This document shows, one piece after another, positions 57,864 through 62,068 of a DNA stretch of 64,000 bases (positions within the stretch are counted from its first letter, which is position 1; each line of letters starts with the position of its first letter). The notes under the pieces are model-generated. The model made no database searches. It was not told where the DNA came from and saw only the letters and a list, made by a program, of their open reading frames with translations. The DNA is taken from NCBI RefSeq assembly GCF_000332275.1, contig NZ_CM001776.1, forward strand, positions 2,979,737 to 3,043,736, given 5' to 3'. This DNA is from Synechococcus sp. PCC 7336 (GTDB lineage: Bacteria > Cyanobacteriota > Cyanobacteriia > Thermostichales > PCC-7336). The translations under genes and the position numbers were made by a program.

Positions 57864-58808
57864 TCACGACGGCGGAGAGTCGGCATCGAACGGTTCGATA
57901 TAATCGTAAGGCTCGATATGGATGGTTGCCCGCACATCCCCATACTTGTCTTGCAGGGCCAACTCCACCTGTTCTGAAATCCTGTGGGCTGACTCCACAT
58001 CCAAAGGTTCTACAACTAAGTGCATCTCCACAAAGACGCGCTGCCCCACAATGCCCCGAGACGAAATTGCGTGACAGTCGATCGTCCCTTCCACATCCAT
58101 TGCAACCTTGTAGATGGATTCGGGAGCGATCGCGACGCGATCGGTTAACACCGGTATATTTTCCTGCAGCACTTCCCAAGCACTCCACACCACCAACACC
58201 GCTACTGGAAAAGCCAAAACAGTATCTAACCACAACCAGCCCTGCTGCACCCCCCACAACCCCAGCAAGACGGCGATCGTAATCCCCACGTCGCTCGTAG
58301 TGTGGCGGGCATCCGCCAGCAGTAACGGGCTGCGGAGCACTTTCCCCCGCCAGCGTTCGTAGACCGTAACGCCAATATTGACTAGTAACACCCCAACCAT
58401 TAGCTTGAAGGTCAAAGCGTCCACCGATAATTCCAGGCCGCTCTCGGGATCGAGCCAGCGACTCAAGGCCGATTGCACAATTTCTAAGCAGGCTATCCCC
58501 AGAAAAGCGGCAATGAACAATGCCCCAATCGACTCAAATTTGGCATGACCGTAAGGATGGTCCCAATCGGGCTTGGGATCTGCCAGCCGCATGGCCACTA
58601 AGCCGAGAATATTGCTGGCGCTGTCGGCAACTGAATGGAGGGCATCGGCCATGAGGCTGAGGGAGCCCGTGGTTATGCTCAGGACGACCTTCGTCGCAAA
58701 CACGGCTAGGTTGAGCAGTAATGTAATCAGTAGCACCCGCTGTACGCCCCTCTGTCGAAGTTGAGCGTCAGTTGGAATAGAGATGGATTGAGTCGTTTCT
58801 GCGCTCAC
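57864..58808 (-). CDS. cation diffusion facilitator (CDF) transporter
   Basis: A 314-residue CDF membrane transporter with six spans. Metal-site motifs are LMADALHSVADSASN in span 2 and LLADARHTTSDVG in span 5 (HxxxD type). The C-terminal cytoplasmic domain (about 225-305) has the CDF ferredoxin-like fold (VFVEMHLVVEPL, ATIHIEPYDYIEPF). The zinc, cobalt, iron or manganese specificity cannot be set. An HxxxD pair occurs in Zn/Fe-type and other members. It starts on ATG 58808. Confidence 0.93.
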   Translation of the reverse strand: MSAETTQSISIPTDAQLRQRGVQRVLLITLLLNLAVFATKVVLSITTGSLSLMADALHSVADSASNILGLVAMRLADPKPDWDHPYGHAKFESIGALFIAAFLGIACLEIVQSALSRWLDPESGLELSVDALTFKLMVGVLLVNIGVTVYERWRGKVLRSPLLLADARHTTSDVGITIAVLLGLWGVQQGWLWLDTVLAFPVAVLVVWSAWEVLQENIPVLTDRVAIAPESIYKVAMDVEGTIDCHAISSRGIVGQRVFVEMHLVVEPLDVESAHRISEQVELALQDKYGDVRATIHIEPYDYIEPFDADSPPS

Positions 58809-59145
58809 ACTCTCAAATCTGAATTCTGCTAGCGATGGTGATTGCCAGCAATTGGGGGACGTAAATACAAGTCACTGAGCCTTTGACCAGCTGGCAGTTT
58901 GGCCGGTTCGCCGGGACGAGTGGGATAGGAGTGAGTGGGGAATACAGTATGCGGCAGCAGTTGCTTGCTGACATTGTACTGCAGTGAGTTGGGCACTGCA
59001 GTGAGTTGGTACTGCAGTGAGTTGGGCACTGCAGTGGGTTAGTTTTGCGAGATGCGGCGATCGCCTCAACTGCTCAAACAAAGTACCTCCTCAATTGAGG
59101 AGGTACTGTAATTGGGGAATAGAGCTCCGCTAGCAGGCTTTGCCC
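58809..59145. other. intergenic region with a tandem repeat
   Basis: No gene is supported. The minus-strand frames here are just translations of the repeat. It includes the tandem repeat at 58978-59043. Confidence 0.6.
58978..59043. repeat. four tandem copies of a 16/17-base unit
   Basis: The unit ACTGCAGTGAGTTGG recurs four times, followed by GC, T and GC in alternation, which gives a 33-base super-period. The last copy is altered (ACTGCAGTGGGTTAG). Each copy begins with the palindrome ACTGCAGT. It lies upstream of the CDF gene start. Confidence 0.85.
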
Positions 59146-59316
59146 CTAGTGACCTCGATATTTCATGGTGTATTTGGCAGCCTGAAGGGGATTCCGTTTC
59201 ACTTGTTTGCGAATAGCAAACTCGCGGCCGTGGAATTGACCGTTCAAGACTTCGTTAGTCGATTCAGCGGTAGGGGGGGCGTAGTCGAACCGACTGCCAA
59301 GAAATTGCAGATTCAT
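59146..59316 (-). CDS. DUF4278-like small protein A
   Basis: A 56-residue protein: MNLQFLGSRFDYAPPTAEST, then NEVLNGQFHGREFAIRKQVK and a tail RNPLQAAKYTMKYRGH. It ends with the same RGH as its paralogue 200 bases upstream and shares the FHGRExxIRKQVKRN core. The pattern (YRG-like start, double proline, GxFxGxxxxIRK, final YRG) is that of the DUF4278 family of small cyanobacterial proteins. The function is unknown. It is basic (many Arg/Lys), so nucleic-acid or membrane binding is possible. No strong ribosome binding site precedes the ATG. Confidence 0.7.
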   Translation of the reverse strand: MNLQFLGSRFDYAPPTAESTNEVLNGQFHGREFAIRKQVKRNPLQAAKYTMKYRGH

Positions 59317-59409
59317 GACGATTGAAAACCTCTAATTAAGTAGCATCGAACAAACATCGAGCGAGTGGGAGTTGGCTTCACTAACCTGAAGAAAGTAGCT
59401 CGGGAAGAC

Positions 59410-59440
59410 AACCTAGCTTTCGACTTTCAAAAGCTAGGTT
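59410..59440. terminator. perfect hairpin between the DUF4278-like genes
   Basis: AACCTAGCTTT and AAAGCTAGGTT form a perfect 11-base stem with a 9-base loop. There is no T-run on the minus strand side. It may terminate or process the transcript between the two small genes. Confidence 0.6.
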
Positions 59441-59516
59441 GATGGTTTTAGCGCCGCAGGCAAGCCGCAGTACAACCCCTCCCAAACTTCAAAGCTACGT
59501 TCTTAAAAGCTCAGGT

Positions 59517-59684
59517 TTAGTGGCCCCGAAACCGCATTTTGAAAGGGCTGCGAAGGACATTGCGCTTGACTTGCTTGCGAATGCGAAAGTCGTGGCCGCG
59601 AAACTTACCGGCTAAGACTTCATCTGTTGTAGGGGCCTGCGGGGGAACGTAATCCGCATGATGGCCGCGATATAAAATATCCAT
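59517..59684 (-). CDS. DUF4278-like small protein B
   Basis: A 55-residue paralogue of protein A: MDILYRGHHADYVPPQAPTT, then DEVLAGKFRGHDFRIRKQVK and a tail RNVLRSPFKMRFRGH. GGAGGCG 8 bases before the ATG is a strong ribosome binding site, so this gene is real despite its size. It shares the GKFRGxxFxIRKQVKRN core and the final FRGH. DUF4278-type proteins are short, basic and widespread in cyanobacteria, without known function. A and B form a tandem pair, probably a duplication. Confidence 0.75.
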   Translation of the reverse strand: MDILYRGHHADYVPPQAPTTDEVLAGKFRGHDFRIRKQVKRNVLRSPFKMRFRGH

Positions 59685-59870
59685 GTTCAATTCGCCTCCA
59701 GTAATCCGAACGTGTGGATGTTGTGTGTGACATGTGTAAGAACGTCACAAGAGGCGCGTTCCTTCGGGGGTGTCAATCCCTACTTCCGTCTTTTCTCACC
59801 GCTTGATTGGGGCTAGGAAAAGATGAACGATTTATTTCTGTATTCATTGTTACCGTTTTTTGGCTTGTTG

Positions 59871-60197
59871 TCAAGTGGATTCGTTGGCCGCTTGTTCTCG
59901 GGATGTGGAGGAGCGCTGCCAATCGGAACAGAGGCGATCGCCCGGACCACTGGGGTGGAGGGCACAGACCAATTGCGGTTTGTTGGCGTAGTAGCGACAA
60001 GATCGACAGATTGGTTGGGTTCCGAGAGCTAATTGAGGGCCAAAGGCGATCGCCGCTGGAGGGCCTTTAATATGAGTGCGCAGGCGAGCATAGCGAGCAA
60101 TGCAGTGGCGGCGGTAGATGGCTTGTCTGCGCAGGCGACTGGTGGCGCTGCGGACATAGGATTGGGCAGGTGCTTGAAGGTCTGGTGCAGGGGGCAT
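59871..60197 (-). CDS. small protein with a C-terminal CxxC module
   Basis: A 108-residue protein with basic N-terminal residues (APAQSYVRSATSRLRRQA). A C-terminal module reads PICRSCRYYANKPQLVCALH then PSGPGDRLCSDWQ. The four cysteines (CxxC, then VCALHP, then LCSDW) resemble a small zinc-binding module common in cyanobacterial hypothetical proteins. The start ATG 60197 has GGAGG seven bases upstream, which supports it. The function is unknown. It could be a rubredoxin-like or zinc-ribbon protein. Confidence 0.55.
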   Translation of the reverse strand: MPPAPDLQAPAQSYVRSATSRLRRQAIYRRHCIARYARLRTHIKGPPAAIAFGPQLALGTQPICRSCRYYANKPQLVCALHPSGPGDRLCSDWQRSSTSREQAANEST

Positions 60198-60886
60198 GGA
60201 GAATCCTCCCATACAGTTTTTAGATTGCATCGCGCGATCTCAAATCTCGGTTGGGGTGCCCGCAATCACGGTGACGCAGTGACGCATTTATATCGTCGTT
60301 AGAAGATATTGTCGCTAGAAGCTTAGCGATCGCTACAGCTAATCTGAAGAGTGAGGCATCCTTTGGAATTGACTGCATGGCTATCTTTAGCGTATCTCCA
60401 AACTACCGTCCGATACGATAGCCTGCTGACATGAAAATCTGAGGGTGTTTACTGATTTTAGATTGCCAAAATGCTCGATTTGTGTATTCAAACCCTGCGT
60501 ATCTCCTTGTGTTTGTGTCAGATCCCGGAGTTGCTTCCATCAGCGCCTAAAGGCTGAAACCCTTATAGGGGAAAGTATTGTAGGGATGTTTATCTAGATC
60601 GCGACCTAGATTTCAAGTCGAGTCGAATTTTCCCAGGAACTAAAATCCGGCCTGGAATGTCTATTGTTAGGAACGAGGTCGTGGGGATCGGAGATTCTAC
60701 ACGCATTAGTGTCCTTGCAAGTTGCCGGGTTTGATTGACTGCCGGACTGAGAGAACTGGGAAGTATCCCTGGGAAATTTTTCAGATGAACTTCAGGGCAC
60801 CTTGAGTTGTATTCTCCATCCTTGATATCGGGGCAATCGCGCCTTTACGACTAGCCACTTGTAACTATTCTTCTGGAGACTCAACT
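60198..60886. other. long intergenic region upstream of the PCAS gene
   Basis: Nearly 690 bases with no supported coding region. The right part (about 60550-60880) must hold the PCAS gene promoter and a long leader. I see small inverted repeats (for example TCTAGATC / GACCTAGA around 60593) but no clear known riboswitch. An unannotated small RNA is possible. Confidence 0.5.
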
Positions 60887-61312
60887 GTGAAAGTCCAACA
60901 TTTTGCTCTCATTGCTGTTGCTGCTGTTCTGAGTGTCGGTGCTCCCGTTCCTCAAGGCTTTAACTTGGCCTCCAACTCCGGCACCGCGATCGCCGGTCCA
61001 TGCGCCAGTCCCTGTGCCAGTCCCTGTGCCAGCCCCTGCGCCAGCCCCTGTGCGAGCCCCTGCGCCAGCCCTTGTGCGAGCCCCTGCGCCAGCCCCTGTG
61101 CGAGCCCCTGCGCCAGCCCTTGTGCGAGTCCCTGTGCGAGTCCCTGCGCTAGTCCTTGTGCGAGCCCCTGCGCCAGCCCTTGTGCGAGTCCCTGCGCTAG
61201 TCCTTGTGCGAGCCCCTGCGCCAGCCCTTGTGCGAGTCCCTGCGCTAGTCCTTGTGCGAGTCCCTGCGCTAGTCCTTGTGCCAGCCCCTGCGCAAATCCC
61301 TGTGCTAGCTAG
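60887..61312 (+). CDS. secreted Cys-rich PCAS-repeat protein
   Basis: A 141-residue protein: GTG start, signal-peptide-like start MKVQHFALIAVAAVLSVGAP, then, from residue 38, 26 tetrapeptides of the form Pro-Cys-Ala-Ser, the penultimate being PCAN. That gives 26 cysteines spaced by four. The DNA repeat is 12 bases with 48-base higher-order copies. It is exported or periplasmic by prediction. Such a regular Cys array suggests metal binding (copper or similar thiophilic metal) or disulfide cross-linked surface material. The next gene shares the same N-terminus and the motif. No named family is recognised. Confidence 0.75.
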   Translation: MKVQHFALIAVAAVLSVGAPVPQGFNLASNSGTAIAGPCASPCASPCASPCASPCASPCASPCASPCASPCASPCASPCASPCASPCASPCASPCASPCASPCASPCASPCASPCASPCASPCASPCASPCASPCANPCAS

Positions 61313-61326
61313 CAATGACTGACCTT

Positions 61327-61360
61327 GGAGCGCGCTCCTAGTAGTGTTCGCGCTCCATTT
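61327..61360 (+). terminator. terminator-like hairpin after the PCAS gene
   Basis: GGAGCGCG (61327) pairs with CGCGCTCC (61349-61356), followed by ATTT. It starts 14 bases after the stop codon. It may partly separate the two repeat genes. Confidence 0.65.
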
Positions 61361-61432
61361 CCTATGGCAGGCTGCGCCAGCTAACCTGCTGTAGCTGGCA
61401 AATCATCACTCTTTATTCTGGAGACTCAACTC

Positions 61433-62068
61433 GTGAAAGTTCAACATTTTGCTCTCATTGGCATTGCCGCTGCCCTGACTGTTGGTGTCGGTGTTACGGC
61501 TCCTCGGGTGGGCAATTTTTTTGCCTCCAATACGGCTAATTCTGGAGCGGCGATCGCTGCTCCCTGCGCCAGTCCTTGTGCGAGTCCTTGCGCAAACCCC
61601 TGTGCAAATCCCTGTGCAAATCCCTGCGCTAGCAGCTCGGCAGCAGCGACGGACAGTACTGACTACAACTTGGCAGTTCAGGAAATCGATGGCCAGAACG
61701 TGATCGAACTGACTCAAGTGTCCTGTCAGTTCTTGGAAAGTGAAGGGGTGAACTTGGGTTTTGAATCTCAGTCTGCCGATGACTGTAAAGAAATTAATGC
61801 TTCCACAAAGGACGATCGCACTCTGCAGGCGCTGACGTTACCTGCAGGTGAATATACCTTCCGAGTCACCAACAAAGGTGTGCCCTACCAGCTAGGCTTT
61901 TGGCTGCGCGGGGCGGGGCTCAGCAGAGCCGTCCTACCCAGTGTGTCTGGCGGCGGCCTATTTGACGGTCAAACAAAAGATTACACTGTCGAGCTGCGAC
62001 CGGGTCGATATGTCTATAGCTGCCCCCTCAATCCGACTTTGGACTATGAATTGGTAGTGGAAGGCTAG
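61433..62068 (+). CDS. secreted PCAS-repeat protein with cupredoxin-like domain
   Basis: A 211-residue protein with a GTG start. The signal-like N-terminus (MKVQHFALIGIAAALTVGVG) is nearly the same as in the upstream gene. Six PCAS/PCAN units follow (about residues 44-67), then a domain of about 140 residues: LPAGEYTFRVTNKGVPYQLG and LRPGRYVYSCPLNPTLDYEL. This looks like a cupredoxin fold, with the C-terminal Cys ligand in YSCPLNP but the usual His replaced by Asn, so it may not bind copper like plastocyanin. It ends in ELVVEG. The two genes share upstream sequence, so they look like a duplication with divergence. Confidence 0.75.
   Translation: MKVQHFALIGIAAALTVGVGVTAPRVGNFFASNTANSGAAIAAPCASPCASPCANPCANPCANPCASSSAAATDSTDYNLAVQEIDGQNVIELTQVSCQFLESEGVNLGFESQSADDCKEINASTKDDRTLQALTLPAGEYTFRVTNKGVPYQLGFWLRGAGLSRAVLPSVSGGGLFDGQTKDYTVELRPGRYVYSCPLNPTLDYELVVEG

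Follow-up and report, generated by a model that had tools for sequence, protein, structure and literature searches.

MrpX is a methionine-rich secreted peptide of extreme composition that scavenges oxidants and stands under the control of an extracytoplasmic function (ECF) sigma factor. Bufferins, also secreted peptides, contain cysteines and improve growth under copper stress, according to PMC12452194. Here we set such systems beside gene C of Synechococcus sp. PCC 7336, which encodes a protein made, after a secreted-type leader, of 26 cysteine tetrapeptides, and beside its paralog, gene D, which begins 120 bp downstream. Both genes lie in a stretch of 64,000 nucleotides (NZ_CM001776.1, positions 2,979,737-3,043,736, forward strand), called the window below. 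With every fourth residue of the mature protein a cysteine, the question arises of how such thiols survive outside the cytoplasm and what they do there. We propose, at a probability of roughly 45%, that C is an extracytoplasmic polythiol whose thiols would be kept reduced by a relay of the thioredoxin/DsbD type and would take up or hand on soft metal ions and oxidants, and that D would carry the same module on a cupredoxin-like domain.

The features of gene C are the following:
60875..60878, + strand: GGAG Shine-Dalgarno-like motif of gene C (the CTGGAGACTCAACT block also precedes gene D)
60887..61312, + strand: gene C, stand-alone PCAS repeat protein, 141 amino acids, GTG start, TAG stop
60887..60994, + strand: Sec-type leader, probable cleavage after A34-I35-A36, directly before G-PCAS
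60998..61309, + strand: 26 tetrapeptide units (25 PCAS, 1 PCAN) with 48-bp higher-order blocks

The h-region of the leader, FALIAVAAVLSV, has a mean hydropathy of 2.82, and the AxA motif abuts the repeat. The first-pass annotation had read 26 perfect PCAS-type tetrapeptides behind a signal-like N-terminus; as judged from the sequence at 60887-61312, the secreted-type leader and the 26 exactly spaced cysteine tetrapeptides stand, 25 units being PCAS and one, unit 25, PCAN. The cysteine spacing is exactly four residues throughout, and the predicted mature protein contains 26 Cys, 26 Pro, 26 Ala, 25 Ser, one Asn and one Gly, with no charged residue. Single-sequence AlphaFold modelling yielded a predicted local distance difference test (pLDDT) score of 57 and nothing credible, helices included, on which ground a stable solenoid was rejected; the model suggests a lack of fold, and mature C is probably an unfolded, uncharged chain of ~105 residues with 26 thiols. 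The disordered PT repeat family PF04886 scores 28.4 bits against the whole protein (cut-off 26.2), no single stretch passing, which points to a match of composition. Neither C nor D is covered by a described family in the libraries used (Pfam, NCBIfam).

In the 12-bp unit, compared over all 26 copies, the four third codon positions all vary, while one of the eight first and second positions does so, and only once; units 18-21 repeat units 14-17 exactly, each set making up a 48-bp block. On the strength of these identical blocks, and of variation confined almost entirely to third positions, the array, as read from its nucleotides, is expanding blockwise while the amino acids are held. Change of length by slippage, as foreseen in the first-pass annotation, is plausible; besides the 48-bp blocks, a frame break occurs in the array of one relative. 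Since an antisense frame, LAQG, is equally silent across the repeat, the silent pattern alone is no proof of the sense frame. The sense frame is supported by the GGAG before the GTG, by the GTG start and VK[VI][QR]H leader of the paralogs, and by the in-frame fusion of leader, repeat and domain in D; LAQG, with neither leader, start nor fusions, was discarded as the coding frame. Four consecutive PCAx units, searched as an exact pattern, occur in one of the 386 sampled genomes of the phylum, that of the window itself, and the reversed control pattern gave no match; the array is far from chance.

Gene D and the region before it comprise:
61327..61356, + strand: inverted repeat GGAGCGCG-N14-CGCGCTCC between C and D, not a scored terminator
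61420..61423, + strand: GGAG Shine-Dalgarno-like motif of gene D, read from the sequence
61433..62068, + strand: gene D, paralogous leader, six PCAS/PCAN units and cupredoxin-like domain, 211 amino acids
61562..61633, + strand: the six PCAS/PCAN units of D
61691..62065, + strand: cupredoxin-fold domain of D, three invariant cysteines (TQxxCQF, DDC, YSCPLN), without the type-1 copper His/Met

D has a GTG start and the leader type of C (VKVQHFALI). The statement that nothing else in the window resembles C is contradicted by D, and two further repeat paralogs lie elsewhere in the 5.07-Mb genome; all four genes, C included, share the GTG start and the VK[VI][QR]H leader. The D domain, of 125 residues, has no Pfam or NCBIfam match above cut-off, and nothing in the plasmid collection matched D. 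Homologs 60-68% identical to the domain, fused to NPCA or PCAA arrays, are present in three genomes of the same order. Its AlphaFold model (pLDDT 96.4) retrieved the EfeO structure 7wgu (E 1.2e-5), auracyanin 1qhq (7.1e-5) and also amicyanin by Foldseek. Aligned to plastocyanin, the domain keeps the copper-loop cysteine, has an invariant tyrosine (Tyr66) in place of the first histidine, and lacks a His or Met after the cysteine; by this model the domain has a cupredoxin-like fold, and by its ligands it falls outside the type-1 copper proteins. A pattern search of the genome collection gave 203 matches, 175 of which encode relatives; 80 loci were kept, mostly coding for free-standing secreted proteins of Proteobacteria, and the three cysteines are invariant across 48 sequences. 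In the D homolog of the metagenome-assembled genome SM2_3_2 (L033:5538-6543), a frame break falls inside the NPCA array, reflecting slippage or an assembly error.

The two paralogs outside the window are:
L015:7198-7467, + strand: paralog with a lipobox-like VASC and mostly PCAN units
L014:7309-7746, - strand: paralog with mixed spacing of 4 to 6 residues

With its mixed spacing, the second paralog forms a link between the tetrapeptide array and the NPCAxx arrays found elsewhere in bacteria. The repeat of this paralog is interrupted, and a segment (LDQLCSSFPLNSRC) stands between repeat blocks near the C-terminus; there is no Pfam match. The kinship with NPCA repeats, which the first-pass annotation had called broadly similar, holds. 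PCSS- or PCSRP-rich frames of the same genome (L017, L018, L019, L021), possibly the antisense of another repeat, are unlike the PCA family, have no leader and were not counted as paralogs.

Beyond the exact PCAx array, arrays of [ND]PCA with six-residue spacing occur in 22 of the 386 genomes of the phylum (16 of 143 genera). In these the array forms the N-terminal part of secreted proteins, which, by reading through the listed proteins, we count as thioredoxin-like (WC[PAS][AG]C) in 14 genomes, YHS in five, and repeat-only or cut by the contig end in three. The genes are neighboured by DsbD_TM (nine cases) and thioredoxin (eight), and also by response regulators and kinases; NPCA-thioredoxin, DsbD_TM, TrxB and thioredoxin genes form runs on one strand in L171 and L182, with TrxB above the NCBIfam cut-off in L171. 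In L181 the NPCA-thioredoxin gene is adjoined by MerF and a CopZ-type metallochaperone, and L178 has a MerA-like FAD oxidoreductase and a VTT protein that shares 61% identity with the VTT protein next to D in G003. Of the 386 genomes of the phylum, just one other than the window's own (G146) has the D domain, and there the D gene and a gene for an NPCA lipoprotein are in divergent orientation. A conserved cupin-like protein of 200 residues (HNH[AG]xWGIV), encoded at L171:1677-2285, L140:6929-7537, L030:8434-9135 and other places and assigned to no Pfam or NCBIfam family, stands next to NPCA genes in eleven stretches of cyanobacterial DNA and next to D genes in G003 and G146, and because it adjoins both, it ties the D group to the thioredoxin/YHS group. 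The leaders of 17 cyanobacterial members have 6.9 of 19 positions in common, versus 2.7 when shuffled within regions, which, in a set that includes paralogs and by a comparison short of a formal test, supports their common origin. A disulfide-reductase neighbour in G003 scores as a canonical dihydrolipoyl dehydrogenase and was not used as evidence.

Across phyla, an NPCA-repeat gene lies within ~5 kb of the D-domain gene, mostly within 3 kb, at 39 of the 80 loci; at a fortieth, L033, the repeat is fused to the D domain or lies in an overlapping open reading frame (ORF). Repeat-only genes are found at 29 of the 80 loci (L033 counted), and repeat ORFs with a CxxCH haem motif at 30, a few of which may be overlapping frames and 16 of which group cleanly as one cytochrome cluster. 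Searched against Pfam, this NPCA-flanked cytochrome passes the cut-off for SoxA-TsdA_cyt-c, an extra cysteine being invariant; a profile of 13 such sequences gave weak matches to di-haem enzyme, peroxidase, MauG and SoxA, and phmmer with a single NPCA cytochrome found no relative in the PDB. SoxA/TsdA-type c cytochromes with NPCAAK arrays on both sides (L054, L074, L085, L106 and others) are often encoded in a single run that also includes repeat-only peptides and a multihaem cytochrome. Around the proteobacterial D family (124 proteins scanned), Sulf_transp is the commonest neighbour (18), followed by DUF6969 (15); multihaem cytochromes, DUF302, sigma factors, VTT, redoxins, rhodanese and PMSR also recur. 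Genes for a CusB-like protein with a CusF domain and for an RND pump stand beside DUF6969 and NPCA genes in one Methylotenera genome (L136:2277-7036).

Of 18 genomes carrying the D domain, 16 have NPCA arrays with six-residue spacing, as against 3 of 113 sampled Gammaproteobacteria (4 of 114 with the centre of the sample included), a contrast that is descriptive because the 18 genomes were picked for the domain and come from several classes. Within the 113, the D domain is intact in two genomes, both NPCA-positive, and a third genome has no more than a decayed fragment of it (Fisher p 4.7e-4 without the fragment). A decayed D-domain fragment is located at L127:1417-1700 in the gammaproteobacterium G447.

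Since similar repeats occur in many bacteria on or beside proteins that deal with thiol redox, metals or sulfur, an extracytoplasmic pool of reactive thiols is probable, and C is probably not an isolated oddity. We envisage that C is exported through its Sec leader as a flexible chain of Pro-Cys repeats and that a transmembrane thioredoxin/DsbD-type relay would keep its thiols reduced outside the cytoplasm. The reduced thiols would then take up thiophilic species or hand them over, soft metal ions such as Cu(I) or Hg(II) and oxidants being the likeliest. The cupredoxin-like domain of D might dock, shield or relay the ligand, and C and D would cooperate. At somewhat less than even odds, the Pro-Cys-Ala array may more generally be a widespread and so far unrecognised mobile module, a polythiol tail or peptide outside the cytoplasm that receives electrons from a dedicated TrxB - thioredoxin - DsbD-like relay, is attached to thioredoxin-like, YHS, cupredoxin-like or SoxA/TsdA-type cytochrome partners and binds thiophilic metals or sulfur; C would be its barest form, a leader followed by thiols and no more. 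A metal sequestration or redox role, raised in the first-pass annotation, would fit the thioredoxin-like, DsbD-like, YHS, cupredoxin-like and SoxA/TsdA-type cytochrome company of the relatives, and MerF at one locus. The choice of metal follows from YHS, the cupredoxin fold and MerF/CopZ and CusB-like company at a few loci; for sulfur speak many proteobacterial loci with YeeE-type transporters and the SoxA/TsdA-type cytochrome, taken with the SoxT model (PMC11582611). The two may be one chemistry.

Several observations weigh against a reduced polythiol serving metals. The thiol relay is read from the gene content of relatives, the copper ligands are absent from the D domain, and the predominance of Sulf_transp around the proteobacterial D family (18 of 124) favours sulfur over metal. 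Of genes of metal, redox or thioredoxin type, the window has near C just a CDF cation-efflux gene, which lies on the opposite strand at a distance of 2 kb:
57867-58808, - strand (window coordinates): CDF cation-efflux gene

The region between this gene and C (58830-60880) holds no convincing gene and has a 17/33-bp tandem repeat at 58976-59040.

The best surviving rival, doubtful though worth weighing, is that C is a carrier of sulfane sulfur, its thiols loading persulfide outside the cytoplasm and passing it on, as SoxYZ would feed the YeeE-like importer SoxT with the help of a periplasmic thioredoxin; a DsbA-like thioredoxin has been considered as the possible releaser of SoxYZ sulfur for SoxT import (PMC11582611). 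The prominence of Sulf_transp (YeeE/YedE) among the proteobacterial neighbours, in the company of DUF302, redoxin and rhodanese, speaks for such a carrier, as does the SoxA-TsdA_cyt-c match with its invariant extra cysteine. In the window, however, neither C nor D has a sulfur transporter or a Sox-type gene nearby, the GGCGG motif of SoxY is absent from both proteins, and in cyanobacteria most of the neighbours are genes for DsbD, thioredoxin, two-component systems and sigma factors.

We consider it unlikely that C builds a surface matrix or fibre through inter-chain disulfides; the first-pass annotation had raised a disulfide-linked surface fibre. The regular CxxxC with a proline before each cysteine, in an uncharged, repetitive chain, would suit it, and CxxxC-spaced domains do make disulfide networks in minicollagens (PMC4195985). 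Thioredoxin-like, DsbD and TrxB proteins, usually reducers of disulfides, are fused to the relatives or encoded beside them, which argues weakly against a matrix; moreover, many of the relatives consist of a short peptide or form the N-terminal tail of an enzyme, and C lacks an anchoring domain.

It is very improbable that translation of C senses metal and thereby regulates D in the way that CutF acts on CutO. CutF is an exported protein with a CxxxC motif, and a stem-loop follows it (PMC9973294); in C the CxxxC motifs overlap, and the 120 bp between it and D contain predicted hairpins. This intergenic region, however, folds no better than shuffled sequence (z -1.32), which led us to reject CutF-like regulation, the GGAG of D is largely unpaired, outside the hairpin stems of the centroid fold, and the two paralogs elsewhere are not upstream of a D-like gene. 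An untranslated or neutral expanded repeat, in keeping with the recent expansion seen in the 48-bp blocks, is equally improbable in view of the variation almost only at third codon positions, the ribosome-binding motif, the paralogs and the conserved fusions. Least credible is a precursor of a ribosomally synthesized and post-translationally modified peptide with cysteines altered by a radical-SAM/SPASM or MNIO enzyme, rejected because the matches to the radical-SAM target families TIGR04117 (22.1 bits) and TIGR04118 (15.9 bits) fall far below the cut-offs (50 and 35), MNIO (PF05114) is absent from the genome (two control genomes matched) and its only SPASM gene, at 4556638, lies ~1.5 Mb from the window (2979737-3043736), even if a bufferin-like operon with an MNIO enzyme adjoins the Hahella D gene. 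That operon (L039:6783-9238), composed of a small cysteine-containing secreted peptide, the MNIO enzyme and more genes, directly follows the D gene of Hahella ganghwensis.

A full-text search for the repeat letters found no paper describing the repeat, which is weak evidence since most subscription journals are outside its coverage. We rate C and D as a kind of secreted cysteine-rich peptide with unusual domain company. The relatives make the question of the thiols testable: in them a repeat of this kind is fused to thioredoxin-like domains, with genes for DsbD-like proteins and thioredoxin reductase alongside, and it co-occurs with a widespread, unnamed cupredoxin-like family that has lost its copper ligands. 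Should the module be a powered thiol buffer, it would give cells a general means of dealing with soft metals or with sulfur at their envelope.

Set against the known systems, C shares with MrpX the idea of an extreme secreted scavenger; it has cysteine in place of methionine and no ECF regulator near it, whereas ECF sigma genes adjoin some proteobacterial NPCA/D loci. Unlike metallothioneins, C has CxxxC spacing only, without CxC or CxxC clusters, and no metallothionein profile is among its Pfam and NCBIfam matches. With bufferins and other MNIO metallophores, C has in common secretion and cysteines, but the EGKCG motif is missing from C and MNIO from the genome. The Cxxx-repeat targets TIGR04117 and TIGR04118 have a cysteine at every fourth residue, like C, which stays below their cut-off and has no cognate enzyme nearby. 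CutF-type copper sensors resemble C in their Sec leader, CxxxC and following hairpin region (PMC9973294); C differs in its many overlapping CxxxC and in hairpins that leave the next ribosome-binding site uncovered in the predicted fold. The D domain shares the fold and the copper-loop cysteine with type-1 cupredoxins (plastocyanin, auracyanin) and the EfeO cupredoxin domain, without their two His and Met ligands. The nearest likeness is to the NPCAAK/NPCAxx secreted peptides and NPCA-flanked cytochromes of Proteobacteria and the uncharacterised NPCA-thioredoxin and NPCA-YHS proteins of cyanobacteria, which, like C, have a Sec or lipoprotein leader and Pro-Cys-Ala repeats and, like C and D, are linked in the genome to a D-type domain or fused to redox or metal domains. 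Their cysteine spacing is mostly 5-7 and their units often contain Lys or Asp, in contrast to the 26 uncharged units of one sequence type in C, spaced by exactly four. C and D fall into a working class of NPCA-type secreted repeat modules, with a leader, at least three PCA units, and linkage or fusion to a D-type, thioredoxin, YHS or cytochrome domain.
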